From positions 2,527,496 to 2,591,495 of the forward strand of contig NZ_JQLU01000005.1 of the NCBI RefSeq assembly GCF_000744375.1: a DNA stretch of 64,000 nucleotides, in the 5' to 3' direction. Below the pieces are notes generated by a model. The model was given only the letters and a program-made list of their open reading frames with translations. It had not been told where the DNA came from and did no database searches. Both the position numbers and the translations under genes were made by a program. This document shows, in pieces, positions 24,472 through 36,614 of the stretch; position 1 is the first letter of the stretch; every line of letters begins with the position of its first letter. This stretch comes from Carnobacterium gallinarum DSM 4847 (lineage in GTDB: Bacteria; Bacillota; Bacilli; Lactobacillales; Carnobacteriaceae).

Positions 24472-24521
24472 AAAAAGATCTGTCATTCACTAATTTTCAA
24501 GTGAATGACAGATCTTTTTTT
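24472..24521 (+). terminator. Terminator after treR
   Basis: Perfect 19-bp stem (AAAAGATCTGTCATTCACT with its complement), T7 tract. Confidence 0.9.
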
Positions 24522-24553: not shown

Positions 24554-24586
24554 CTTTATATCTGCTTCACATTAGCTTGGTAAGCT
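24554..24586 (+). promoter_or_regulatory. Promoter motif of the ABC/PASTA operon (tandem response-regulator box)
   Basis: CTTTATAT (24554-24561) and CTTCACAT (24565-24572) form direct repeats with an 11-bp period. They are followed by a weak -10 (TAAGCT, 24581-24586). Closely similar repeats with the same spacing precede the response regulator gene at 28412. Further CTTTACA and CTTCCACA copies lie at 24532 and 24540. Confidence 0.5.
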
Positions 24587-24616: not shown

Positions 24617-26104
24617 ATGAAATTTTATAAGCGTGCATTTTTAAGTATTACTAGAAGAAAAGGGAAATCATTGATTTTATTTGCAGTTATTTTTATCTTA
24701 GGAAACTTAATTGCTGGGGCGATTTCGATTCAAGAGGCAACGAATAATGTTGAAAATACAATTAAGAAAAAATTAGGCAGTATTGCCACAATTGAATTAG
24801 ATCTGCAAAAGCTACAAGAATCCGAGGACATGACAAAAATTCCAAGTTTAGATGAAAAGAAAATTAATGCATTTGGCAAACGTCCCGAAGTAAAATACTA
24901 CGATTACAACATAGACAAATATGTTACTTCAGAAACCATAACACCCTATAAACCAGACAGCAGTGATAATAAAGATGCTATGGTTATTGGAGGTGTTGGA
25001 GGATCTGAATTTAAACTAAAAGGCGTTCAGTATGCTTCAATATTGGATTTTAAAGAAAAGAAAGCCAAGTTAATTGCTGGTCGAACCTTTACTGAAGAAG
25101 AAATTAAAAATAATCGTTCAAGTACCCTGATTTCAAAAAAATTAGCTGATGCAAACAATCTTTCAGTTGGTGATACATTTACTATGAAAAACGCAGTCTA
25201 TGATTATAGCCAACGAGATACTGAGGCCATTGCTTCTCGAGATATTCAGATGGAAGTCATTGGTATTTTTGATCCTTTGGAAGCTAAAAAATCCGATGAT
25301 TCAAAAGAAAAAAAATCCTTATCGTCTGATTTTTTTAATACTGATTTTCAAAATACATTATATGTTCCAAATGAAGTAGCAAAAAGTGAAACGGAATTTG
25401 AAAGAGACTCCATGAGAAAAGCTGGTTTGCTATCAGATAATCAATCTAACGAAACGTTTATTACACCTACTTATGTCTTGAAAACGCCAGAAGATAGTCA
25501 GCGTTTTAAATCGGCAGTTCAAGCACAAATCCCTAAGGAATATAAAGTAACAAGCTCAAGTGATCAATACAATACAATTGCAGCGCCAATTAAATCTATG
25601 TCAGAATTATCTAAATACGTACTGATTGCAGCATTAGGGGCTACCATTTTAATTATTGGTTTAGTTGTTTTGCTATTTTTGCGAGATCGTAAGCACGAGT
25701 TTGGCATCTATTTATCTTTAGGTGAGCGTCGTAAACATATTCTAGGGCAGATTCTAATTGAAGTTATGGCAGTTGCCATCGTTGCTGTTAGTTTATCAAT
25801 TTTTACTGGAAATCTATTAGCTAGTGGTTTATCAGAGTCCATGATTCAAAGTCAAATCGCGGCTGATGCTGAAAAAGAGGCAGCAAGTTCAAATGTCGGT
25901 TCGACAATGGTGATGTTAGGCGGTGGTGATGCTAGTAGAGGGGGGGATGTCTCGCAAGCCGATGTTACAAAAGCATATCAAGTTCAATTAAATCAAAAAT
26001 ATATTGGAATGATTTATTTAGTTAGCTTATCCACAATTCTACTATCGACCATCATTCCTGTTACCTATATTGTACGATTAAACCCTAAAAAAATTATGTT
26101 ATAA
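24617..26104 (+). CDS. FtsX-like ABC transporter permease (Vex-like)
   Basis: Membrane protein of 495 residues. TM1 lies at about residues 15-37 (RRKGKSLILFAVIFILGNLI), followed by a MacB-like extracellular domain of 290 residues. Three TMs lie in the last 170 residues (KYVLIAALGATILIIGLVVLLFLRDRK, and two later). The opening RRKGKSLILF and overall size recall Vex1/Vex3 of pneumococcus. There is one permease gene here where vex loci have two, so the transporter would be a homodimer or use another partner. RBS AGGAGG. It is probably cotranscribed with the ATPase 16 bases downstream. Confidence 0.87.
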   Translation: MKFYKRAFLSITRRKGKSLILFAVIFILGNLIAGAISIQEATNNVENTIKKKLGSIATIELDLQKLQESEDMTKIPSLDEKKINAFGKRPEVKYYDYNIDKYVTSETITPYKPDSSDNKDAMVIGGVGGSEFKLKGVQYASILDFKEKKAKLIAGRTFTEEEIKNNRSSTLISKKLADANNLSVGDTFTMKNAVYDYSQRDTEAIASRDIQMEVIGIFDPLEAKKSDDSKEKKSLSSDFFNTDFQNTLYVPNEVAKSETEFERDSMRKAGLLSDNQSNETFITPTYVLKTPEDSQRFKSAVQAQIPKEYKVTSSSDQYNTIAAPIKSMSELSKYVLIAALGATILIIGLVVLLFLRDRKHEFGIYLSLGERRKHILGQILIEVMAVAIVAVSLSIFTGNLLASGLSESMIQSQIAADAEKEAASSNVGSTMVMLGGGDASRGGDVSQADVTKAYQVQLNQKYIGMIYLVSLSTILLSTIIPVTYIVRLNPKKIML

Positions 26105-26120
26105 GAAAGCAGGCAGAACT

Positions 26121-26795
26121 ATGGCAATTTTAGAAGTTAAAGATTTAAATTATTATTATCAAGATGGCGATCAACGTCGTACCATTTTAAAGGACACAAA
26201 TTGTATGTTTGAAAAAGGTAAATTTTATACAATTTTAGGACAATCAGGTTCAGGAAAAACCACTTTTCTATCTTTAATCAGTGCGTTAGATCAACCAAAA
26301 AGTGGCGAGATTTTCTATGATCAAAAAAATATTGAAACTATTGGATTAGAAAACTATCGGCGCAATCAAATTGGCATTGTTTTTCAGAGCTACAACTTAA
26401 TTCCATATTTAACGGCAGTTGAAAATGTTTTACTGCCAATGGCTATTACAGATAATCAATTGCCAGCTGAGCAATTGCTAGTAGCTTATAATTTATTGGA
26501 TTATATCGGCATTGGAAAAAGTAAAGCGGATCGAACAGTCAATCGTTTGTCTGGTGGAGAACAGCAGCGTGTGGCGATTGCTCGAGCAATTGCAACAAAT
26601 GTTGAAGTGATTTTAGCTGATGAACCTACAGGGAATTTAGACGAAGAAATGGAACAAGAGATTGTACGAATCTTTAAAGAATTAGCTCATAAGCATCAAA
26701 AATGTGTGATTGTCGTTACCCACTCGAATGAAATTGCACTACAATCGGATGAAACATTTTATTTACAAAAAGGAAATTTAATTTCATATGAGTGA
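26121..26795 (+). CDS. ABC transporter ATP-binding protein (Vex2-like)
   Basis: ATPase subunit of 224 residues. Walker A is GQSGSGKTT, the Q-loop is [12 protein letters not shown], the signature is [15 protein letters not shown], Walker B is [12 protein letters not shown] and the H-loop is VIVVTHS. It belongs to the MacB/LolD class and serves the permease just upstream. The last 8 bases overlap the start of the PASTA gene, so translation is probably coupled. Confidence 0.93.
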
Positions 26796-28113
26796 TTTTT
26801 TATCAGGCTTTAGCTCAACTACTAATCAGGAGACTTCATCCTCAAAGAGTGATAGTACGTTGAATCAACCTGTAAGTATAGTGCAAACTAGTGGGAAGTT
26901 TAGACTAACAGAAGAATCTGAATTTGATCCTAATTTTAAAAAAAAGCAACGAAAGAAGCAGTATTTGATTTTATTGGGAGTGGTTGTTGGCATTGTAATC
27001 TTATCCATCTTCTATTATAAGACTACCCATGTTCCAATGCCTAATTTTGTAAATAAGCCAGTCAGTGAAGCTCGAAATTGGGCTGCAAAGAATAAGATAG
27101 AATTAGAGTTAAAACAAAGTTACAATTTGAAAAAAGAAGCAAACCAGGTGATTCGTCAAAAAGAAAAATCTGGAAAACAGATAAGAAAAGGTCGTACAAT
27201 TGAACTAGCAGTTAGTTTAGGTGCCGATCCTGATGGGAGTATTCAGTTGCCAGATTTTGCCAAAATGTCAGAACAGACGATAGACCAATGGATTAAGGAA
27301 AATCAAGCTGAGAATCTAAAATTAATTAAAGAATATAGCGATTCTGAAGAAAAAGGTCAATATTTACGCTTTGAAATTAAAAATAAAGATGTGACAGCAG
27401 CAACGTATAAACGAAAAGATAATGCTAGTGTCTATTACTCAAAAGGCAAAGAAATTTTTGAAAAAAATATTAAACTGCCAAATTTCGTTGGAAAGACTAA
27501 AAGTGAAGTTGAAACTTGGGCTAAGGCGAATGAGATTCAAGTCACCTATGAAGAGACTGATTCAAATGATAGAGCTGTTGATCAAATTATTAGTCAAACA
27601 ATAGCTGAAAATGAAAAAATAGCAAAAAAAGACAGCATGTCTGTAACAGTTTCATTGGGTAAAGCAGTCATTGTTCCATATTTTGGCAATCTGTCTGCAG
27701 AAACAGCTAGCATGATTGCTGATTTAAATGTATCTGTTAGGAAAATGTATAGCACCGATGTTGCATTTGGTCATTTAATTTCTCAATCGGTTGCGGCTGA
27801 TACTAAATTAACTACGAAAGATGATCAAAAAGTTGTAGTTGTTTATTCAGAAGGTCGTCCATATTTGAAAGATTATCGTGGCATAACAGAAGGTGAATTA
27901 CAGAAGCAATTCTATGACGATTATCAATCAAAAGGCGCAAATGTGTTGTATACAATTGATTATGTTGATTCTACAGAAGCTAAAGGAACAGTTGTTAAAA
28001 TGAGTACTTTTAACGAATATATTCCTTTAGACTATACGGTGGCAATTAGCATCAGCAAAGGCAATTTAGTAGGGGCTGAGGAGAAGTCAGCGAATAAAAA
28101 TACCTCAGAGTAA
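26788..28113 (+). CDS. Single-pass membrane protein with about five PASTA repeats, no kinase domain
   Basis: Protein of 441 residues. A Ser/Thr/Gln-rich cytoplasmic stretch (residues 1-60) is followed by one TM (about 63-80, YLILLGVVVGIVILSIFYY). Then come five PASTA-like repeats of about 70 residues: MPNFVNKPVSEA, QLPDFAKMSEQT, LPNFVGKTKSEVE, VPYFGNLSAET and LKDYRGITEGEL. PASTA domains usually sit on Ser/Thr kinases or penicillin-binding proteins and bind peptidoglycan fragments or beta-lactams; here neither partner domain is present. The coupled start inside the ATPase gene makes it a likely part of the transporter. It may sense wall material for the ABC transporter or two-component system (inference). 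Confidence 0.85.
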   Translation: MSDFLSGFSSTTNQETSSSKSDSTLNQPVSIVQTSGKFRLTEESEFDPNFKKKQRKKQYLILLGVVVGIVILSIFYYKTTHVPMPNFVNKPVSEARNWAAKNKIELELKQSYNLKKEANQVIRQKEKSGKQIRKGRTIELAVSLGADPDGSIQLPDFAKMSEQTIDQWIKENQAENLKLIKEYSDSEEKGQYLRFEIKNKDVTAATYKRKDNASVYYSKGKEIFEKNIKLPNFVGKTKSEVETWAKANEIQVTYEETDSNDRAVDQIISQTIAENEKIAKKDSMSVTVSLGKAVIVPYFGNLSAETASMIADLNVSVRKMYSTDVAFGHLISQSVAADTKLTTKDDQKVVVVYSEGRPYLKDYRGITEGELQKQFYDDYQSKGANVLYTIDYVDSTEAKGTVVKMSTFNEYIPLDYTVAISISKGNLVGAEEKSANKNTSE

Positions 28114-28196
28114 TCTGATCATCTTAATTGATAGAAAAAGGTTGAGTGAGAAAAAAACTACTATTTGGGATAAAAAATCAGGTGAATAAAATAAGA

Positions 28197-28244
28197 AACT
28201 GTAAGAAGTCAGCATTTGCAAAAATTGATTTCTTGCAGTTTTTT
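28197..28244 (+). terminator. Terminator after the PASTA gene
   Basis: Stem AACTGTAAGAA / TTCTTGCAGTT with a T6 tract. It separates the ABC/PASTA operon from the two-component genes. Confidence 0.75.
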
Positions 28245-28337
28245 CAATGTTAAAACGTATGTCCTAGTCATTTAATTCTTAATTTTATAGATAGAAACTG
28301 TCATAAAAAAATGCTTGCTTCGCATGTTCATTGATTT

Positions 28338-28370
28338 CTTCATACTGACTTCACATACATAAGGTATACT
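28338..28370 (+). promoter_or_regulatory. Promoter of the two-component operon with tandem response-regulator box
   Basis: CTTCATAC (28338-28345) and CTTCACAT (28349-28356) repeat with an 11-bp period. TATACT (28365-28370) starts 15 bases after the TTCACA hexamer. This is the same arrangement as at 24554-24586. Confidence 0.55.
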
Positions 28371-28411
28371 ATAAAAAGACAATGAACAAAGGACCAATTA
28401 GGAGGACCAAA

Positions 28412-29074
28412 ATGGAGTATCATATATTATTAGTGGAAGATGAAAAAGAAATTCGGACAGCTATGTATAATTTTTTAATACGAGAGCATTATCAAGTTGT
28501 GGCAGTTGAAACTGGTGAGGAAGCTTTAGAGCAATTTAAAAAAGCTGATTTTCATTTAGTTTTATTAGATATGATGCTACCAGGAATATCTGGGGAAGAG
28601 GTGTTAAAACAAATTCGCTTGAATTCAGACGTTCCAATAATGATTATTAGTGCGTTAAATGATGAGTTAATTCAGCTAGATGCATTTGAACAAAGTGTGG
28701 ATGATTATGTAGTTAAGCCTTTTTCTATGAACATTTTGATGCATAAGATTGCGTCACTATTGCGTCGGGTATACGAACAACAAGCAAAAGAGTTAGTTTA
28801 TCGTGATTTGCGCTTATTGGTAAATAATTATGAGGCCTATTATCAAAATGAACTATTAGATTTAACAGTTAAAGAATTTGAAATTTTGCAAACAATGCTA
28901 CAAAATTCTGGGAAAGTCTATACACGTGAAGAATTGTTGACAGTTGTTTGGGGCTATGAATACTTTGGTGATAGTCGTAATATTGACGTTCATATTAAAA
29001 ATATTCGTAAAAAAATTAAAGAGGATATCATTAAAACAATTAAAGGAATTGGATATAAGGTGGAACGTTTATGA
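28412..29074 (+). CDS. OmpR/PhoB-family response regulator
   Basis: Regulator of 220 residues. The receiver domain (residues 4-118) has the phospho-acceptor Asp in LVLLDMMLPG, a conserved Ser in MIISAL and Lys in YVVKPFS. The C-terminal winged helix (130-220) ends RNIDVHIKNIRKKIKEDIIKTIKGIGYKV. The ATG at 28412 follows AGGAGG (28400-28405); an in-frame ATG ten codons earlier lacks a site. It overlaps the kinase gene by four bases. By neighbourhood it resembles VncR. The tandem box in its own promoter suggests autoregulation (inference). Confidence 0.94.
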   Translation: MEYHILLVEDEKEIRTAMYNFLIREHYQVVAVETGEEALEQFKKADFHLVLLDMMLPGISGEEVLKQIRLNSDVPIMIISALNDELIQLDAFEQSVDDYVVKPFSMNILMHKIASLLRRVYEQQAKELVYRDLRLLVNNYEAYYQNELLDLTVKEFEILQTMLQNSGKVYTREELLTVVWGYEYFGDSRNIDVHIKNIRKKIKEDIIKTIKGIGYKVERL

Positions 29075-30498
29075 TCAAAAAAATCTCACTTTATTGGAAA
29101 ACATGGCTCATTACAGTCACAACAATTTTACTTACTCTTGGTGTTTTTTTTATTATATTTTCTCAATTTGCTACTTATTTTTTAGAAGATGCCCAAAAAA
29201 ATCGATTTAATCAAGGGGTAAAAGAGATCAAAACATACACAGAAAAAAATGGGATTGATCCTAACTATTTAGGAGAATACTATCGTAGCGGATTTCTTGT
29301 GACAATTGTAAAAGGAGAGAATCTAATTTTTCCTGTACAAGGAATATCTGGCGAGGTTGCTGGGGTAGTCCCATTTACAGAAGAATTACAGGTAAATGAA
29401 AGTACAAAAGCCTATCCCAGTGAGGCGGTAACCATTATGAATACAACAATTGCCTCAAATTCGCTCTTAACAATGGAAGAAAATATAACGTATCAAGGAG
29501 AAGTTTACAGATTATGGGTTAGTTATCCGTTGAGCTTAAATAAAGAAGACATTCAACAAGTTTTAACGTCCGTTACACCATTTTTCCTAGGAATTGGTTT
29601 AATTGTATCCTTTGTCGTCTCGATTATTTATGCTAAATATTTTTCTTCTAAAATTACAAGGCTCAATACAGCAATTAATCAAATGGCCGATGGAACACTG
29701 ATTGAGGAACATTTTGAAAAAGAAGGAGACGAACTACAAGAATTAGAAAATAACTTGCATCGAATGTATCAAGATTTACAAAGTGCGTTACAACAACTGA
29801 ATCAAGAAGTTCAAGTAGTGAAGCGATTAGAAAAAGATCGGCAGTTATTTATGAGAGGAGCTACGCACGAATTAAAAACGCCAATTATGGCTATGAGTAC
29901 AATGTTAGAAGGTATGTTAGAAAACGTTGAAGGCTATGAAAATCGAGATCAATATTTGAAAGCCTGCTATGGTCGCTTGCAAAGTATGGGGAAATTGGTA
30001 AATGAAATGCTAGAAGTTTCTCGAATTGAAGGAATTATCTATCAAGGTAAAACAAATTTAAAAATAGCTACTGAGGAAGTCATTGATATTTATCGGTATA
30101 TGCTAGAAGATAAAGCAATTGATTTATTGTTGTCAGAGCTATTCGTAACAGAAATTGAAATTCCTAAGCGTAATCTACAAAAGGTATTATCCAATTTAAT
30201 TGGCAATGCAGTGAAATACACACCAGAACAAGGAAGCATTAGAATTTATTCCAACCAAGAAATATGGAGTATTACGAATACAATGAAAGAAGGGTCAATT
30301 AAAGATGCTAGTAAAATATTTGAACCTTTTGTATCCTATGAAGAGCAGTCTGAAAATGAATTTGATCAGAGTCATGGGTTAGGTTTATACATTGTAGATG
30401 CTATTTTAACTCAGTATGGTATTGTTTATGATTATTCTATTGATGGAGAGAAAAATACGTTTGAATTCAAATTAGAATTAGGCAATAGTCAGGAATAA
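29071..30498 (+). CDS. Sensor histidine kinase
   Basis: Membrane kinase of 475 residues. TM1 (about 14-36) and TM2 (about 168-190) frame a 130-residue extracellular sensor domain. A HAMP-like linker follows, then the phospho-His box MRGATHELKTPIMAMS and an HATPase domain with N box LSNLIGNAVKYTP and a G box HGLGLYIVDA. The partner is the response regulator, whose stop it overlaps (ATGA). The architecture matches VncS/VanS-like sensors. The signal is unknown; the neighbouring PASTA protein makes a cell-wall cue plausible. Confidence 0.94.
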   Translation: MIKKISLYWKTWLITVTTILLTLGVFFIIFSQFATYFLEDAQKNRFNQGVKEIKTYTEKNGIDPNYLGEYYRSGFLVTIVKGENLIFPVQGISGEVAGVVPFTEELQVNESTKAYPSEAVTIMNTTIASNSLLTMEENITYQGEVYRLWVSYPLSLNKEDIQQVLTSVTPFFLGIGLIVSFVVSIIYAKYFSSKITRLNTAINQMADGTLIEEHFEKEGDELQELENNLHRMYQDLQSALQQLNQEVQVVKRLEKDRQLFMRGATHELKTPIMAMSTMLEGMLENVEGYENRDQYLKACYGRLQSMGKLVNEMLEVSRIEGIIYQGKTNLKIATEEVIDIYRYMLEDKAIDLLLSELFVTEIEIPKRNLQKVLSNLIGNAVKYTPEQGSIRIYSNQEIWSITNTMKEGSIKDASKIFEPFVSYEEQSENEFDQSHGLGLYIVDAILTQYGIVYDYSIDGEKNTFEFKLELGNSQE

Positions 30499-30610
30499 TG
30501 ATTGTATAGAAAACTAAATAAATGATGAAATAGAAAAGGTAAGTAGCTAATGAGTTGCTTTTTCTCAAATTTTAGATGAAAGAATGCTGCTCAAAAGTCT
30601 TAAAATAATA

Positions 30611-30661
30611 AAAAACCTAATAAATCCATTTTTCCAAATGATGATTTCTTAGGTTTTTTTA
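30611..30661 (+). terminator. Terminator of the two-component operon
   Basis: Two-part stem AAAAACCTAA / TTAGGTTTTT with inner AAATC / GATTT, then a T run. Confidence 0.75.
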
Positions 30662-30751
30662 TTTTTTATGTAAACATGTGGAAGTTGGTTCATTAAAAGT
30701 GAAAAAAGCAATTAAATGGGGCTTTTTACTATTGAAGATTACAAAAAAGAT

Positions 30752-30876: not shown

Positions 30877-31929
30877 ATGAAGAAGAAAATAGTTAGTTTT
30901 TTAGCCATCCTATGTTTAAGTTTGACGGTGTTAGCTGCTTGTGGCAAAGGAAGTACTGCTGAAAAAGAAAAACTTACTGTATATACCGCAATTGAAGAAG
31001 AACTTGTTCAGAGCTATTTAGAATCTTATAAAAAAGAGAATCCTAATGTGGAGGTAACGATTGTTCGTGATTCAACAGGAATCATCACAGCTAAGTTACT
31101 GGCAGAAGGTAAAAATACAAAAGCTGATGTTATCTGGGGTGTTTCAGCATCTAGTTTGCTAACATTAGAGCAAAAAGATTTATTAGCAGGATATACACCT
31201 AAAGGAAGTGACGCGGTCTTACCAAACTATAAAGACACGAAATCACCAACAAAATGGGTAGGTGTTGCTGGCTACCAAACAGGAATTATTGTCAATACAA
31301 CTGAGTTAAAAAAGAAAAATATCGCGATTCCCCAAACGTATGCAGACTTAACAAAGCCTGAATATAAAGGCTTGATTGCAATGCCAAATCCAGCTTCATC
31401 AGGAACAGGGTTTCTAACAGTTTCAGCATGGTTACAAATGATGGGAGATACAAAAGCATGGGAATTTATGACAGAACTTCATAAAAATATCGGAACGTAT
31501 ACGCAGTCAGGTTCAAAACCAGCTAAATTAGCTGCAGCTGGAGAATACCCAATTGGAATTACCCTTGCATATAGTGGTGTTCAACAGCTTAAACAAGGAG
31601 CACCAGTTGAAATTGTCTTACCAAAAGAAGGATTAGGTTGGGACGTAGAAGCGAATGCATTAGTAAATAAAGAAGGCAACTCAGATAATAAAGTAGCTCA
31701 AAAATTCTTAGATTGGGCCCTTACAAAAGATGTTATGCAAAAAGCCTTTGATGCTAATGGATTTGTGAGTATCAAAAATGAGTTTAAAGCTCCAGAGAAT
31801 TTCCCGAAAAATATTGAAGAAAAAATGTATAAAGAAAATAATTTACAATGGGCTGCTACTAATCGTGAGCCTATCTTAAAAATGTGGGATCAAAAATTTG
31901 CAGAAAAAGCAGAAGTAACTAAAAAGTAA
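30877..31929 (+). CDS. 2-Aminoethylphosphonate ABC transporter substrate-binding lipoprotein
   Basis: Extracellular solute-binding protein of 350 residues, tethered by lipid. The signal peptide ends in a lipobox (LTVLAACGKGS, Cys about residue 22). The mature part is a class-II periplasmic-binding fold of the iron/AEP type (LTVYTAIEEELVQSYL, ADVIWGVSASSL, GYQTGIIVNT, PNPASSGTGFL, ALVNKEGNSDNKVAQKFLDW). An Fe(III) ligand is the main alternative; downstream phnX and phnW favour 2-aminoethylphosphonate. It is first of six genes in one transcript; RBS AGGAGG. Confidence 0.88.
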   Translation: MKKKIVSFLAILCLSLTVLAACGKGSTAEKEKLTVYTAIEEELVQSYLESYKKENPNVEVTIVRDSTGIITAKLLAEGKNTKADVIWGVSASSLLTLEQKDLLAGYTPKGSDAVLPNYKDTKSPTKWVGVAGYQTGIIVNTTELKKKNIAIPQTYADLTKPEYKGLIAMPNPASSGTGFLTVSAWLQMMGDTKAWEFMTELHKNIGTYTQSGSKPAKLAAAGEYPIGITLAYSGVQQLKQGAPVEIVLPKEGLGWDVEANALVNKEGNSDNKVAQKFLDWALTKDVMQKAFDANGFVSIKNEFKAPENFPKNIEEKMYKENNLQWAATNREPILKMWDQKFAEKAEVTKK

Positions 31930-31942
31930 GGAAGTGAAAGTG

Positions 31943-32959
31943 ATGCAGGCACCGTACTTGGAGGTTCAACAAGTAAATAAGCAATTTGGTAAATTTGATG
32001 CCTTAAAAGAAATTTCTTTAACAATTGAAAAAGGTGAATTTGTCTGTTTATTAGGCCCAAGTGGTTGTGGAAAGACAACCTTGTTACGTATTATTGCAGG
32101 TTTAGAAACAGCTTCTACAGGTGAAATTATCATTGCTGGGAAAAATGTGACAAGATTAGTACCAGCTAAACGGAATTTTGGCATTGTTTTTCAATCCTAT
32201 GCATTGTTTCCTAATATGACCGTTGAACAAAATATTGAATACGGCTTAAAGAATAAAAAAATTGATTCAGCACAACGAAAACAACAAGTAGCTGAAGTGA
32301 TTGAATTTGTTGATTTAAATCATGTGAAAAAGAAATATCCAGCACAGCTTTCAGGGGGGCAACAACAAAGAGTTGCCCTTGCTAGGGCAATCTCATTGAA
32401 GCCTGATTTATTATTATTGGACGAACCACTATCAGCACTAGATGCTAAGGTACGCGAGCGTTTAAGAGTTGAGATTAAAGAAATTCAAAAAAAACTAGGT
32501 ATTACAGCTATTATGGTCACTCATGATCAAGAAGAAGCTTTGACCATGGCTGACAAAGTTGTTGTCATGAATCATGCCCAAATCATGCAGATTGGTACGC
32601 CAGAAGAAATTTATAAAACACCAACAAATCCATTTGTAGCCAAGTTCATTGGCTCAATGAACTTTTGGGAAACACAGCAAGTTGAAGAAGTCTATGGAAT
32701 ACGACCTGAACATGTCACCTTGTCAAATGAAGGCGAGGGAGAAAAAGGTGAGGTAACAGCCATTGAATTTCGTGGAAGCCACTATCGAATTCAAGTGAAA
32801 ATGAAAGAAAGTCTATATTTCTCAACGACTAACGAAGTAATTGTAGATATTCAAGCAAAAGAATTAGAAAAAGCTCAACTATCTATTGGTAGTGAACTTA
32901 CACTAACTTTTAATCCGAAAAAAATTCTAACCTATCCTAAAAGAGCAGTTGAGGTGTAA
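31943..32959 (+). CDS. 2-Aminoethylphosphonate ABC transporter ATP-binding protein
   Basis: ATPase of 338 residues. Walker A is GPSGCGKTT, signature LSGGQQQRVALARAI, Walker B LLLLDEPLSALD, and the C-terminal OB/TOBE domain covers about residues 240-335 (YGIRPEHVTLS). It powers the importer of the flanking genes. The ATG at 31943 is preferred because GGAAGTGA lies 5-12 bases upstream; a GTG at 31934 overlaps that site. Confidence 0.9.
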   Translation: MQAPYLEVQQVNKQFGKFDALKEISLTIEKGEFVCLLGPSGCGKTTLLRIIAGLETASTGEIIIAGKNVTRLVPAKRNFGIVFQSYALFPNMTVEQNIEYGLKNKKIDSAQRKQQVAEVIEFVDLNHVKKKYPAQLSGGQQQRVALARAISLKPDLLLLDEPLSALDAKVRERLRVEIKEIQKKLGITAIMVTHDQEEALTMADKVVVMNHAQIMQIGTPEEIYKTPTNPFVAKFIGSMNFWETQQVEEVYGIRPEHVTLSNEGEGEKGEVTAIEFRGSHYRIQVKMKESLYFSTTNEVIVDIQAKELEKAQLSIGSELTLTFNPKKILTYPKRAVEV

Positions 32960-32962
32960 GCA

Positions 32963-34729
32963 ATGGTTCGACCAGTTTCTCAAAAAGTGAATAAGTTCAA
33001 CAAAAAAACAATTAAACAAAAAGCAGATAAAAATAGTTGGTTGCAACGTAGTTTAGTGCTAATTATGCTTTTAAGTTTTCTATTATTTTTGATTTTACCC
33101 TTGTCTATGTTGTTTTCTCAAGCCTTCTTTGATAATAATCAGAAATTTATTGGTGTTGCTAATTTTTCCGAATATTTCACAACACCAGCCTTAGTAGAAT
33201 CATTGAAAAACTCTTTAACCGTATCTAGTCTAACAACAATTATTTCAGTTAGTTTAGCCTTTTTCTTTAGTTATGGGTTAACGAGAACCAATATGTTTGG
33301 TAAAACAATTTTTCGCTATATATTGTTGTTGCCTTTATTTGCTCCAACAATGTTCTATGGGATTGGTTTGATGTATTTATTTGGCAATCAAGGTATTGTT
33401 ACTAATGGGTTATTTGGTGTTTTGCCACCAATTAAAATTGAACTTTATGGACCAGTTGGTATTGTCTTAGCTGAAATTTTATATACATTGCCACAGGCAT
33501 TTATGATTTTATTAGTGGCTTTTAAGTCATCAGACTATCGGTTATATGAGGCGAGTGAAGTTCTGTATGCAAGCAAATTAAAACAATTTTTTACTGTTAC
33601 TTTACCAAGTGTAAAATATGGACTCATTAGTGCAATGTTTATTAGTTTTACATTATGTTTTACTGATTATGGTGCGCCTAAAATAGTTGGAGGTATGTAT
33701 AACGTACTGGCAACAGATGTTTATAAAAAAGTTATTGGTCAACAAAACTTTGCAATGGGAGCAACTGTTGGAATCTTACTAATGTTGCCAGCCTTGATGG
33801 CTTTTGTAGTAGACCAAGTCACCAATAGAAAAGCTGGCTTGTCATTAACTGCCAAATCAACTGCCTATCAAATTAAACCAAATAAAGGACGGGATTTGAT
33901 CTATACAATCTATGGTCTAATAGTAGCATTAGCTGTCTTACTGGTTTTCTTTGCAGTAACAATTGCAGCAGTCGTGAATGTTTTTCCATATGACATGGGT
34001 TTGACATTGAAGAACTTTAATTTTAATACATGGAGTGGCGATGGGTTAGTAGCCTATAAAAATAGTTTAATCGTAGCGAGTTTAACAGCTTTGATTGGAG
34101 TAGTTGTAACCTTTTTATTTGCCTATTCAATCGAAAAAATTCGTATCTGGCCATTAGCTAGAAAATGGGCAAGCTTCTTTTCAGTCTTACCTATTGCGTT
34201 GCCAGGCTTGGTATTAGGGCTATCGTATGTATTTTTCTTTAGCAAACCAGAAATTCAAGTCTTTTCAATTTCTCTTCCAAATCCATTATATGGACTATAT
34301 GGTACGATAGGATTGCTAGTGATTGTCAATATTCTTCATTTTTATTCCGTTAGCTTTGTTACAGCAACTACAGCCTTAAAAAAGTTAGATGGAGAGTTTG
34401 AAATGGTGGCTGAAGCTATGAGTATTCCATTCTATAAATTGCTTTTTCAAGTAACCTTACCGCTTTCTTTTGGAGCTCTAGTTGAAATGGCAATGTATTT
34501 ATTTGTGAATTCAATGGTGACTATTTCAGCAGTAATCTTTTTATATCCGCCAGATTTCAAATTAGCAGCTGTTTCAATTATCAATATGGAAGATTCTGGA
34601 AATGTTGCAGCAGCAGCAGCGATGTGTTTGCTAATTGTCTGTACAAACTTACTTGTTCGGATTTGTTATGAAGCAGCAACCAAAGGGATATCCATAATAA
34701 AAAAACGTAGAAACGAGAGGTCAGAATAG
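32963..34729 (+). CDS. 2-Aminoethylphosphonate ABC transporter permease (fused double permease)
   Basis: Membrane channel of 588 residues made of two binding-protein-dependent permease units, about six TMs each. EAA-type loops are seen near residue 190 (YEASEVLYASKLKQFFTVTLP) and near residue 480 (EMVAEAMSIPFYKLLFQVTLP). A fused protein replaces the two separate permeases known in some phosphonate loci. It starts three bases after the ATPase stop. Confidence 0.9.
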   Translation: MVRPVSQKVNKFNKKTIKQKADKNSWLQRSLVLIMLLSFLLFLILPLSMLFSQAFFDNNQKFIGVANFSEYFTTPALVESLKNSLTVSSLTTIISVSLAFFFSYGLTRTNMFGKTIFRYILLLPLFAPTMFYGIGLMYLFGNQGIVTNGLFGVLPPIKIELYGPVGIVLAEILYTLPQAFMILLVAFKSSDYRLYEASEVLYASKLKQFFTVTLPSVKYGLISAMFISFTLCFTDYGAPKIVGGMYNVLATDVYKKVIGQQNFAMGATVGILLMLPALMAFVVDQVTNRKAGLSLTAKSTAYQIKPNKGRDLIYTIYGLIVALAVLLVFFAVTIAAVVNVFPYDMGLTLKNFNFNTWSGDGLVAYKNSLIVASLTALIGVVVTFLFAYSIEKIRIWPLARKWASFFSVLPIALPGLVLGLSYVFFFSKPEIQVFSISLPNPLYGLYGTIGLLVIVNILHFYSVSFVTATTALKKLDGEFEMVAEAMSIPFYKLLFQVTLPLSFGALVEMAMYLFVNSMVTISAVIFLYPPDFKLAAVSIINMEDSGNVAAAAAMCLLIVCTNLLVRICYEAATKGISIIKKRRNERSE

Positions 34730-34730
34730 T

Positions 34731-35513
34731 ATGAGCAAAGTTGAAGGAGTTATTTTAGATTGGGCAGGAACAATGATTGATTATGGTTGTTTTGCACCAT
34801 TGGATGTCTTTTTAAAGTCATTTAAAAAACATGGGATTGAAGTGACGATTGATGAAGTCCGTGAACCTATGGGACTATTAAAAATGGATCATATCAAGAG
34901 AATTTGCGAGATGGAGCGTGTAATGGATCAATGGCAAATCGTTTTTGGACGTCATCCTAATGACGCAGATATTCAGACAATTTATCAAAATTTTGAAGCA
35001 GAGTTACTAAAAAGTGTAGCAGAATATACAGAATTAATTCCAGGGGCTTTAACTTTAGTTGCGTATTTGAAAAAACGTCAGATTAAAATTGGTTCTACAA
35101 CAGGCTATACATCAAAAATGATGGAGATTGTTTCTTTGAAAGCTCAAGAACAAGGCTATCAACCAGATTGTTATTTTACTGCTGATGAAGCAGGAAAAGG
35201 TCGACCGTATCCAAATATGATTTATAAAAATGCAGACTATTTGGATATTTATCCGTTAACTCATTTCGTTAAGATTGGCGATACGGTAGTTGACATGCAG
35301 GAAGGTAAGAATGCTGGAACGTGGACAATTGGGGTTGTCTTAGGAAGTAGCATCCTAGGTCTAACCAGTAAAGAAGTAGCTGAACTATCTGAAATAGAGT
35401 TAGAGCATAAGGTAAATCGTGCGAAGGTGGCTTTGTATGAGGCTGGAGCCGATTATGTGGTTCTTTCTATTGGTGATGTTCCAGCAATTATTGAAAAAAT
35501 TGAACAACGATAA
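34731..35513 (+). CDS. phnX: Phosphonoacetaldehyde hydrolase (phosphonatase)
   Basis: HAD enzyme of 260 residues that splits phosphonoacetaldehyde into acetaldehyde and phosphate, breaking the C-P bond. The nucleophile motif is LDWAGTMIDYG (Asp about residue 9). The Schiff-base Lys lies in EPMGLLKMDHIKRI (about residue 50). Motif II is GSTTGYTSKMM, the Arg/Pro block is GRPYPNMIYKNA, and the metal site is KIGDTVVDMQEGKNAG. It starts one base after the permease stop and is followed by phnW, the preceding step of the pathway. Confidence 0.96.
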   Translation: MSKVEGVILDWAGTMIDYGCFAPLDVFLKSFKKHGIEVTIDEVREPMGLLKMDHIKRICEMERVMDQWQIVFGRHPNDADIQTIYQNFEAELLKSVAEYTELIPGALTLVAYLKKRQIKIGSTTGYTSKMMEIVSLKAQEQGYQPDCYFTADEAGKGRPYPNMIYKNADYLDIYPLTHFVKIGDTVVDMQEGKNAGTWTIGVVLGSSILGLTSKEVAELSEIELEHKVNRAKVALYEAGADYVVLSIGDVPAIIEKIEQR

Positions 35514-35525
35514 GGAGTAAATTTG

Positions 35526-36614
35526 ATGAAAAATCCCTATTTATTATTAACACCAGGACCGTTAAGTACAACTGAAACTGTTCGCAATGCGATGGGCGTG
35601 GATCATTGTACTTGGGATGAAGAATACAAAGAGCTGACACAAGATGTGAGGTCAAGGTTAGTTGCATTAGGTGGTAGCGAAGAGTATACAGCAATCTTAA
35701 TGCAAGGAAGTGGAACCTTTGTTGTAGAAGCAACCATTGGATCTGTTTTGCCACGAAAAAATGCAAAATTATTGATAGCGGCTAATGGTGTATACGGACA
35801 ACGAATTGCTGAAATTGCTGAAATATTGGCAATTCCCACTCAACTACTGGATATGGGAGAGGTGAACCAAATTACCGTTGAAGCAGTAGAGGAACAGTTA
35901 AAAAGTGATGCTACAATTACTCATATTGCGGTGGTTCATTGTGAAACGACAACAGGAATTTTAAATCCAGTTGCAGAAATTTGTCAATTAGCAAAACGTT
36001 ATCAAAAAGTGACAATTGTTGATGCTATGAGTAGCTTTGGCGGTGTTCCACTTAATTTAAAAACAGCAAAGATTGATTTCCTAATTAGCAGTGCAAATAA
36101 ATGTATTCAAGGAGTTCCAGGATTTGGCTTTGTTTTAGCAAAGAAAGATCAAGTAGCGGGATTAGCGAATAATGCTCGGTCATTATCACTTGATTTGTTC
36201 GATCAGTTAGAAACGATGGATCAAACAAATGGTAAATGGCGTTTTACTTCGCCAACGCATGTCTTACATGCTTTTCACCAAGCTTTGCTGGAATTAGAGC
36301 AAGAAGGTGGGATTACGAATCGTTATCAACGTTATTCAGCGAATCAAAAACGTCTAAGTCAAGGGATGGAATTAGCAGGATTTCCATTATTATTAAAGCC
36401 AGAACAGCAGTCGCCGATTATTACATCGTTTTGTTACCCAACGACTACTTTTTCTTTTACTGAATTTTATGAACAATTAAAGGAAAGAGGATTTGTTATT
36501 TATCCAGGTAAGATTTCTAAAGAAGCAACTTTTAGAATTGGCACAATAGGAGATGTAAACGAGGCGGATATCGAAGAATTTTTAGAAGCTGTACATCAAA
36601 TTATGAAAACATGA
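35526..36614 (+). CDS. phnW: 2-Aminoethylphosphonate-pyruvate transaminase
   Basis: PLP enzyme of 362 residues that converts 2-aminoethylphosphonate and pyruvate to phosphonoacetaldehyde and alanine. N-terminal family block LLTPGPLSTTETVRNAM, HCTWDEEY, QGSGTFVVEATIGS, and the PLP-binding Lys in SSANKCIQGVPGFGF (about residue 192). With phnX it gives a full route from imported phosphonate to phosphate, acetaldehyde and alanine. The ATG at 35526 is 8 bases from AAGGAG; the adjacent TTG at 35523 is too near. Confidence 0.96.
   Translation: MKNPYLLLTPGPLSTTETVRNAMGVDHCTWDEEYKELTQDVRSRLVALGGSEEYTAILMQGSGTFVVEATIGSVLPRKNAKLLIAANGVYGQRIAEIAEILAIPTQLLDMGEVNQITVEAVEEQLKSDATITHIAVVHCETTTGILNPVAEICQLAKRYQKVTIVDAMSSFGGVPLNLKTAKIDFLISSANKCIQGVPGFGFVLAKKDQVAGLANNARSLSLDLFDQLETMDQTNGKWRFTSPTHVLHAFHQALLELEQEGGITNRYQRYSANQKRLSQGMELAGFPLLLKPEQQSPIITSFCYPTTTFSFTEFYEQLKERGFVIYPGKISKEATFRIGTIGDVNEADIEEFLEAVHQIMKT

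Follow-up and report, generated by a model that had tools for sequence, protein, structure and literature searches.

Organization of the locus

Five genes lie at positions 24617-30498 of the window (the whole 64,000-nt stretch of Carnobacterium gallinarum DSM 4847 DNA that was analysed). They encode a permease, an ATPase, a PASTA protein, a response regulator (RR) and a sensor histidine kinase (HK), and an ORF check placed all five on the + strand at the coordinates given beforehand, confirming the gene list of the initial annotation. The features are as follows:

24472..24519, + strand: putative intrinsic terminator between a treR-like gene and the module (fold -28.3 kcal/mol, z -8.2)
24554..24572, + strand: 11-bp-period direct-repeat box of the ABC-PASTA operon, CTTTATATCTG CTTCACAT (pattern searches)
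24617..26104, + strand: MacB-like (type VII) ABC permease, 495 aa (Pfam, AF2, Foldseek/VIA)
26121..26795, + strand: ABC ATPase, 224 aa (Pfam, NCBIfam)
26788..28113, + strand: gene of the kinase-less PASTA protein, 441 aa (Pfam, AF2)
28193..28244, + strand: putative intrinsic terminator between the PASTA and RR genes, given to the end of its T run (-22.3 kcal/mol, z -5.1)
28338..28356, + strand: second direct-repeat box, before the RR and HK genes, CTTCATACTGA CTTCACAT (pattern searches)
28412..29074, + strand: OmpR/PhoB-type RR, from its probable start (longest ORF 28382-29074)
29071..30498, + strand: sensor HK, 475 aa (Pfam, NCBIfam)
30610..30659 (approximate limits), + strand: hairpin and T run after the HK gene, likely a terminator (fold of 30600-30670, -16.2 kcal/mol, z -4.8)

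The RR probably starts at the ATG at 28412 rather than at 28382, because AGGAGG stands at 28400-28405 and its relatives begin with MSYNILLVEDE or similar. The 268-nt gap between the PASTA and RR genes contains both a direct-repeat box and a terminator, whose loop is too long for the terminator scan and which was found by reading and folding. A promoter consensus scan returned 33 promoter-like matches against 32.8 in shuffles, and promoter matches are therefore given no weight.

The PASTA protein

PASTA arrays are the wall-sensing part of kinases and are also part of penicillin-binding proteins (PBPs); what they bind and how they signal is under debate. In the window, the third gene product matches the Pfam PASTA family (PF03793) with 92.8 bits in three stretches (cut-off 23.2), its only Pfam match. 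Its only NCBIfam match is the PASTA-kinase model NF033483, of which just positions 307-563 of 563 align (128 bits against a cut-off of 450). Pfam and NCBIfam revealed no kinase, PBP or HlyD/MacA-type domain in it. Its predicted parts are:

26788..26811, + strand: N-terminal motif MSDFLSGF (aa 1-8; sequence)
26935..27027, + strand: single transmembrane helix (aa 50-80; AF2), with a basic stretch on its N-terminal side
27031..27228, + strand: PASTA repeat 1 (aa 82-147; Pfam stretch, AF2, hhalign)
27229..27462, + strand: PASTA repeat 2, divergent (aa 148-225; AF2 and hhalign, without a Pfam stretch)
27463..27666, + strand: PASTA repeat 3 (aa 226-293; Pfam stretch, AF2, hhalign)
27667..27858, + strand: PASTA repeat 4 (aa 294-357; weak Pfam stretch, AF2, hhalign)
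27859..28071, + strand: fifth, PASTA-like end domain (aa 358-428; AF2 only)

The AF2 model (mean pLDDT 85.9, at least 90 at 347 of 441 residues) shows a helix at residues 50-80 followed by five units of helix and strands, and the description of the protein as single-pass and kinase-less is borne out. In hhalign profile comparison units 1-4 recognise each other as PASTA with probabilities of 94.5-99.6%, including the divergent repeat 2 (94.5-97.2% against repeats 1, 3 and 4) and repeat 4 (94.5-98.2%), whose Pfam stretch of 22 bits is below the cut-off. Unit 5 is not recognised (0.3-8.1%, little over the 0.1-0.8% of controls), and it has the highest mean conservation of the five units. The top Foldseek matches of the model, among them 3py9 (E 2.9e-14), are the S. 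aureus PrkC ectodomain and further PASTA chains, and the VIA matches with Z 8-11 cover repeats 1-4, the fifth domain falling outside. The predicted fold is that of a PASTA protein with four repeats by profile and predicted structure and a fifth that is PASTA-like in the model only. The count of five repeats taken from the AF2 model was therefore lowered to four; the earlier "about five PASTA-like repeats" is a fair wording, and the suspicion that the repeats might not fold as PASTA found no support.

The permease and the ATPase

The permease matches the Pfam families FtsX (38.2 bits, cut-off 25.5) and MacB_PCD (31.3 bits, cut-off 27). Its AF2 model (pLDDT 87.3) has four long membrane helices, and Pfam, AF2, Foldseek and VIA agree on a MacB-type fold with an extracellular domain between helices 1 and 2. 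Structural matches (Foldseek/VIA) are MacB, LolCDE, S. pneumoniae 5xu1, YtrEF and FtsX. The highest Z in VIA belongs to the S. pneumoniae MacAB-like pump 5xu1 (Z 19.1, 364 residues aligned, rmsd 10.6), and the YknZ ectodomain 5f9q aligns over 175 residues (Z 13.9, rmsd 2.8); YknZ is also the sole PDB sequence match (8.1e-5). The ATPase matches ABC_tran with 110.8 bits (cut-off 25), and the Walker motifs and the signature LSGGEQQR are readable in its translation.

The PASTA protein was initially thought to replace a second permease. A four-helix MacB-like subunit is expected to work as a homodimer, so no second permease need be missing, and that idea was dropped; the PASTA protein rather holds the place of the MacA-type adaptor in MacAB-like pumps.

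Distribution and unity of the three-gene module

In 395 Lactobacillales genomes, all 78 permease matches of at least 570 bits, a threshold fixed at a gap in the score list after the scores were known, are followed on the same strand by one ATPase gene and then a PASTA gene, at a median permease-to-PASTA distance of 684 nt. Below this threshold a PASTA gene accompanies the broken copy G079 (394 bits) and is absent from G316, G018, G210 and G197 (464-298 bits). A second collection, in which Bacillales and clostridial MAGs were also represented, gave no match to a single window protein; with a three-row alignment as query it yielded 132 relatives, of which 80 loci were kept, all 80 with the order permease-ATPase-PASTA. 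The view of the locus as a strain-specific oddity was dropped on these counts. Permease, ATPase and PASTA protein are a conserved unit in many Bacillota. Pairwise distances of PASTA protein and permease correlate at 0.92, to which shared ancestry also contributes. We found no description of a PASTA-ABC unit in the open-licence PMC literature.

The module is present in Enterococcus, Vagococcus, Streptococcus, Granulicatella, Isobaculum and Bacillales. About 60 of the 395 Lactobacillales genomes carry it, broken copies included, in a search that scored only the best 3 or 4 candidates per genome, so that misses are possible. The 70 matched genomes include three orphan PASTA copies and seven that match only via a frame of 656-731 aa (89.9-106.4 bits), likely PASTA kinases or PBPs. 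The window's own genome is the only one of 3 in the genus with the module, and 2 of 18 genomes in the family (G000 and G016) have it; further genus and family matches (E<=1e-5) reach 25-41 bits in frames of 664-683 aa and are likely PASTA kinases. A phylum-wide search found the module in 7 of 388 genomes. Five lie outside the order, and one of these, G454, has its PASTA frame in pieces. Broken copies were seen on E. raffinosus plasmids and in G079, G234 and G454.

The last 8 nt of the ATPase gene are also the first 8 nt of the PASTA gene, an overlap that is real and conserved across relatives; the survey covered 83 loci, one genome being counted twice (L030 and L053), and L047, L050 and L110 are without a start at -7. 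An MSDFLSxF motif is nearly invariant at the PASTA protein N-terminus. By profile the motif was present in 30 of 30 distinct loci, a sample that takes the top-scoring match from 30 of the 70 matched genomes (34 loci, of which L145-L148 repeat L113, L114, L122 and L117), in which L111 and L112 are rows of the query alignment that itself begins with the motif. In L031-L110 its presence is partly selection, since MSDFLS[GKN]F was one of the two patterns of the search that gave these loci. Synonymous codons differ at motif positions 4-8, and the constraint therefore acts on the protein. The motif probably lies in the cytosol, as a basic stretch precedes the helix. Three genomes (G099, G120 and G183) keep a PASTA protein without the motif and have no permease match at E<=1e-25, indicating that the PASTA protein can have a use alone.

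The two-component pair and the direct-repeat box

An RR and an HK were found nearby on the same strand in 22 of 81 loci and were absent in 59, in a count that stops at opposite-strand ORFs of at least 100 aa and at contig ends; on the far side of such an ORF, L038, L047 and L052 do carry an RR together with an HK-like frame. The pair is thus optional to the module, and the type found in the window recurs. The three closest relatives of its HK (52, 48 and 44%) stand directly behind a permease-ATPase-PASTA module, giving the five-gene order in four genomes (the window and three more), with a PASTA-RR gap of 51-67 nt in three, and the next closest HKs (L149, L174 and L175) adjoin MacB-like ABC genes without PASTA. 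The nearest NCBIfam models of RR and HK are VanR-B and VanS-B, both far under their cut-offs, and, as read from the sequence, some 130 aa of the HK form an extracellular loop that separates its two membrane segments.

The first direct-repeat box begins 63 nt ahead of the permease start. With at most one mismatch, the box occurs at all four modules with a window-type pair and at none of the 80 modules without; in the window's own 4.04-Mb genome it has three matches, of which the two perfect ones are the window's two promoters, the pattern having been written after these promoters had been seen. A pattern made from the sites of other genomes, two mismatches allowed, gave 3 matches in the window against 0.33 expected, two at 24554 and 28338 and one elsewhere. 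There are 22 nine-mers that occur in at least 4 of 5 promoters, compared with 0-5 in 20 mononucleotide shuffles, and six other genomes hold 3-6 box matches each against 0-3 with a reversed-pattern control. One extra perfect box, in G210, begins 262 nt ahead of a gene whose product has glucosaminidase and NlpC/P60 domains. The absence of a pair from most loci had suggested a chance neighbour; this reading was dropped because the closest HK relatives sit behind modules and the box is shared. The shared box and the five-gene order in three more genomes make it probable that the sensor pair and the ABC-PASTA genes are linked.

Genomic neighbourhoods

Neighbour gene names were assigned by eye and then checked on representatives. 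In ten Enterococcus loci the module is flanked by frr and uppS. At eight further loci, seven from Vagococcus, it stands upstream of dnaG and rpoD, with glyS upstream in seven of the eight; no single gene recurs beside it beyond a minority of loci. In other lineages than that of the window the module has further ABC permeases among its neighbours, accompanied by two-component pairs of their own, at 17 Enterococcus loci, 3 Oceanobacillus loci and 1 S. ovuberis locus (L098), where a 661-aa FtsX-type permease, BceB-like by size, and an RR-HK pair lie near the module. For the second Enterococcus permease the FtsX match falls under the Pfam cut-off, so an antibiotic-type reading of such neighbours is weak. 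Two surface proteins in L013 that had been read as WxL-type had no Pfam match.

Proposed function

We propose, with about even confidence for and against, that the locus encodes a regulated PASTA-ABC system, a type VII ABC transporter with a PASTA rod that is under envelope-stress control and serves antimicrobial target protection. Permease and ATPase would form a type VII (mechanotransmission) ABC dimer, with the PASTA protein as an extracellular accessory tethered by one helix and docked on the cytosolic face of the ABC dimer by its flexibly linked MSDFLSxF peptide. The four PASTA repeats and the PASTA-like end domain may reach into the wall and bind nascent peptidoglycan or lipid II, and ATP-driven permease movement would work on whatever the rod holds. 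The most likely effect would be to free wall precursors from envelope-active antimicrobials, a target protection as proposed for BceAB. The HK would sense envelope damage, and the RR would bind the two boxes and raise both the pump and its own pair. Antibiotic defence is our best guess at function, in favour of which the neighbouring ABC permeases with their own pairs were counted, and wall-fragment or antibiotic sensing, as initially suggested, may be involved. In favour of the proposal are the constancy of the three-gene unit and the predicted folds; for docking, the constraint on the MSDFLSxF peptide and its absence from the PASTA proteins of the three genomes lacking a permease match; and for regulation, the shared box and the position of the closest HK relatives. 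Against it count the 59 of 81 loci that are without a nearby RR and HK, the three genomes that keep a PASTA protein but not the ABC genes, the terminator that separates the RR and HK genes from the PASTA gene, the lack of the box at L174, out of three loci that have the same pair and no PASTA gene, and the MSSFLNNF and MSNFLTSF that replace the motif in two of the four copies linked to a two-component pair. The frr/uppS and dnaG-rpoD settings also count against it, suggesting constitutive expression and perhaps a growth role.

These settings in two lineages, together with a permease in the same fold class as FtsX, would suit an FtsEX-type regulator of wall growth. The ABC dimer would use ATP to move the PASTA rod and thereby switch on or position enzymes that hydrolyse or synthesise the wall during growth, antibiotic defence being secondary. 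The G210 box near a glucosaminidase-NlpC/P60 gene points the same way, although it is a single case, farther off than other boxes, and may be chance. We consider this regulator rather unlikely: the patchy distribution and the broken copies argue against a core growth role, as does the lack of a widely recurring neighbour gene. An exporter of the MacAB kind, expelling a peptide or lipid while the PASTA protein merely anchors the pump or guides the substrate, is decidedly less probable. The 5xu1 and YknZ matches and the three-gene layout of spr0693-0695, which has the same kinds of part in the accessible text of PMC5768738, favour it; set against them are the lack of an HlyD/MacA-type domain in the third gene (Pfam, NCBIfam) and the description of Spr0693 in that text as a nanotube channel, in contrast to a PASTA chain of small domains.

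The five-gene order, the short PASTA-RR gaps and the box common to both units could also mean that the PASTA protein is the ligand sensor of the neighbouring HK, in a flux- or ligand-sensing complex to which the ABC transporter is secondary. This is highly improbable, as most loci (59 of 81) lack a nearby RR and HK, related HKs adjoin PASTA-less ABC genes and the HK appears to have an extracellular loop of its own. Beyond the preferred target-protection reading we suggest, tentatively and as a minority prospect, a PASTA system of a third type, alongside the kinases and the PBPs. This would be an ATP-driven mechanical wall probe: via a cytosolic docking peptide, a type VII ABC dimer would pull on a wall-bound PASTA rod, either to clear or move lipid II and wall fragments or to report tension in the wall, and an optional two-component pair would set its level.

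The widespread unit offers an independent setting for asking what PASTA repeats bind, and the PASTA protein would be a new kind of partner for the MacB/FtsEX/LolCDE class. Given the taxa in which it occurs, the module may bear on tolerance of wall-active drugs, and specific testable predictions follow from the box, from the docking motif and from the orphan copies that occur naturally.

Comparison with known systems

Like the PASTA Ser/Thr kinases (PrkC/StkP/PknB/IreK), the window protein has an extracellular PASTA array on one membrane helix, and 3py9 and 3m9g are its best Foldseek and best PDB profile matches. In place of a kinase domain, its N-terminus carries the conserved eight-residue motif and then a disordered linker, and its gene overlaps that of an ABC ATPase. 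BceAB-BceRS likewise joins an FtsX-type ABC transporter to a two-component pair; BceB is a permease of about 650 aa with 10 helices and BceS is intramembrane-sensing, whereas the window permease has 495 aa and four long helices in its model and the HK a predicted extracellular loop. FtsEX with EnvC/PcsB/RipC, so far as the accessible sources describe it, is also a type VII ABC transporter acting on the wall through an extracellular partner, with a different ectodomain; in the window the partner is a PASTA protein in which neither a coiled coil nor a hydrolase was recognised.

The Gram-positive MacAB-like pumps (Spr0693-0695, YknWXYZ) share a MacB-type permease, a separate ATPase and an extracellular accessory, which in the window is a PASTA protein and not an HlyD/MacA-type adaptor (none in the unit by Pfam and NCBIfam), in the order permease-ATPase-PASTA. 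Vex/Vnc loci (vex123-pep27-vncRS; vex23-vncRS), to which the initial annotation likened the window, have ABC genes followed by an RR-HK pair. They combine two FtsX-type permeases with one ATPase, in place of which the window has one permease, one ATPase and one PASTA protein, and the likeness does not extend to the conserved unit, which is permease-ATPase-PASTA with an RR and HK nearby in a minority of loci. It is reasonable for the two-component pair, whose next closest HKs adjoin PASTA-less MacB-like ABC genes: the PASTA-less relatives L174 and L175 consist of permease, ATPase, RR and HK, the same four components as Erysipelothrix vex23-vncRS in the accessible part of PMC9637936.

Organization of the locus

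The module consists of genes for a permease, an ATPase and a PASTA protein, and is followed by genes for a response regulator and a histidine kinase. The features of the locus are as follows:

24472-24519, + strand, strong terminator parting a treR-like upstream gene from the module (folding)
24617-26104, + strand, MacB-like permease (Pfam and structure comparison)
26121-26795, + strand, ABC ATPase
26788-28113, + strand, kinase-less PASTA protein
28193-28244, + strand, second terminator, between the PASTA gene and the regulator gene (folding)
28382 (start more likely 28412) to 29074, + strand, OmpR/PhoB-type regulator
29071-30498, + strand, histidine kinase

Folding also places a hairpin 3' of the histidine kinase gene. 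On the same strand, genes of a 2-aminoethylphosphonate-type uptake and breakdown system follow (30877-36614), including a phnS2 binding protein and a phosphonoacetaldehyde hydrolase, both above the model cut-offs, together with an ATPase, a permease and a class-V aminotransferase. Two further PASTA proteins are encoded in the same genome by frames of 683 and 737 aa, which, judged from length alone, would be a kinase and a PBP.

The AlphaFold2 model of the permease (pLDDT 87.3) has as structural neighbours the Streptococcus pneumoniae MacAB-like pump 5xu1 (Z 19.1, rmsd 10.6, 364 aligned residues) and YtrEF 9o9x (Z 16.2, rmsd 5.1, 385 aligned residues), as well as LolCDE, MacB, BceAB and FtsX. 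By sequence, its sole match in the PDB is the YknZ ectodomain (8.1e-5).

Conservation and genomic context of the three-gene unit

A contig-collection scan with a three-row alignment as query gave 132 relatives, 80 of which were retained. The order permease-ATPase-PASTA is found in all 80 loci, with a called frame of about 60 aa intervening in two. Represented are Enterococcus, Vagococcus, Streptococcus, Granulicatella, Isobaculum, many Bacillales and a few MAGs, Clostridia and Tissierellia among them. An independent search covered 395 Lactobacillales genomes; in these, a PASTA gene lies downstream (median 684 nt) of every permease match of at least 570 bits (78/78). Below 570 bits, a broken match in G079 (394 bits) is accompanied by PASTA; the permease matches without PASTA are that of G316 (463.6 bits) and second copies in G018, G210 and G197 (376-298 bits). 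The G316 locus (L149, 3089-7802) encodes an ATPase, a protein of 114 aa that probably has membrane segments and is unmatched in Pfam, a permease, a response regulator and a histidine kinase; here a small membrane protein unrelated to PASTA seems to have taken its place.

In ten Enterococcus loci (L075, L076, L080, L081, L085, L092, L093, L094, L103 and L104) the module interrupts a row of otherwise housekeeping genes between frr and uppS; in eight loci, mostly from Vagococcus, it lies upstream of dnaG and rpoD. A co-oriented regulator-kinase pair occurs within five genes of the module in 22 of 81 loci, the window included. In 17 Enterococcus loci the pair is followed by another permease-like protein, whose FtsX match is below the Pfam cut-off, and an ATPase; three Oceanobacillus loci have the pair plus another ABC (an 864-aa FtsX/MacB_PCD permease in the one read fully), and the S. 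ovuberis locus has the pair plus a 661-aa FtsX-type permease. On an E. raffinosus megaplasmid (L013, 2707-14120), genes for a histidine kinase and a second permease and ATPase precede permease-ATPase-PASTA; behind the module are genes for likely surface proteins, WxL-like by eye and without Pfam matches. In the inspected stretch, four other E. raffinosus plasmids carry PASTA pieces only.

The PASTA protein and its N-terminal motif

The AlphaFold2 model of the PASTA protein (alignment of 77 sequences, mean pLDDT 85.9) has a single helix at residues 50-80 followed by five units, whose helices span residues 92-101, 162-171, 238-248, 304-307 and 368-378. Foldseek matches it best to the PASTA ectodomains of PrkC from S. 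aureus and PknB from M. tuberculosis and to the PASTA regions of PBPs. In profile-profile comparison, units 1-4 recognize one another (probability 94.5-99.6%), whereas unit 5 recognizes none of them (0.3-8.1%; controls 0.1-0.8%). The protein thus carries four PASTA repeats; its fifth domain resembles PASTA in the AlphaFold2 model only. The five units have a mean conservation of 0.60-0.67, highest in the fifth, and this conserved domain may be a contact part for the permease or the ligand.

Residues 1-46 are predicted to be disordered, yet residues 1-8, the motif MSDFLSxF, hardly vary: their mean conservation is 0.94, compared with 0.35 in the adjoining linker. In 80 of 83 loci, which include one genome twice, the PASTA gene begins within the end of the ATPase gene, with an overlap of 8 nt; one of the exceptions has a shortened ATPase frame. 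Since the overlap spans codons 1-3 only and synonymous codons vary at positions 4-8, the motif is conserved at the protein level.

Three genomes (G099, G120 and G183; loci L151, L152 and L153) keep a shorter PASTA protein of 385-393 aa with no ABC genes as partners, and searching each whole genome gave no permease match at E<=1e-25. glyS lies upstream of all three PASTA genes, once with another gene in between; of the eight full modules with dnaG downstream, seven also have glyS upstream. The MSDFLS motif is absent from all three orphan proteins, which suggests that it is tied to the ABC partner, although the three cases are probably not independent events.

The two-component pair and a shared direct-repeat box

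Among the 395 genomes, the kinases closest to that of the window (G210, G065 and G148; 52, 48 and 44% identity) are each encoded directly behind permease-ATPase-PASTA, with a PASTA-regulator gap of 51-67 nt. The pair is a recurrent partner of the module. The next three kinases (42, 37 and 35%) lie behind MacB-like ABC genes without PASTA (L174, L175 and L149); according to PMC9637936, Erysipelothrix vex23-vncRS has the same four components as such loci. In two other loci, L176 and L177, relatives of the pair adjoin genes for secreted surface proteins, named by eye, and no ABC transporter is next to them.

The pump and the sensor pair are linked by a shared direct repeat, CTTYAYAYNNNCTTCAYAT, whose period is 11 bp and which is found upstream of the module and pair operons. 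The window has two copies, before the permease (24554-24572) and before the regulator (28338-28356), where 0.04 matches with at most one mismatch are expected in 64 kb. These are the only perfect copies among three such matches in the 4.04-Mb genome, and the third has no likely gene after it on the same strand. At the same threshold, the box precedes all four modules with a window-type pair and two of the three loci that have a related pair but no PASTA (L174 is the exception). It precedes 0 of 80 modules without a window-type pair; the best site among these has 4 mismatches. Its period and position are similar to those of PhoB-type boxes. Given this distribution and the box before both permease and regulator genes, both units in the window are most likely driven by this regulator despite the terminator between them. 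Other genomes have further box matches, most of them unexplained. One perfect box (L220 1426-1444; G210:C19:26425-26443) is found some 240 nt 5' of a gene encoding glucosaminidase and NlpC/P60 domains, which is possibly a regulon member, or the box may occur there by chance.

Proposed function and comparison with known systems

We propose that the PASTA protein docks through its MSDFLSxF motif, taken as cytosolic, that the ABC works by dimer mechanics, and that the ligand would be peptidoglycan or lipid II. The function would plausibly be defence against wall-active antimicrobials; the housekeeping sites of the module, and the fact that most loci are without a two-component pair, leave room for a role in growth.

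Our literature search, which covered open-licence papers, found no description of a PASTA-ABC unit. Set against known systems, this is a type VII ABC unit whose extracellular accessory is of a new kind. It is neither a PASTA kinase nor a MacA-type pump nor, strictly speaking, a Vex locus.
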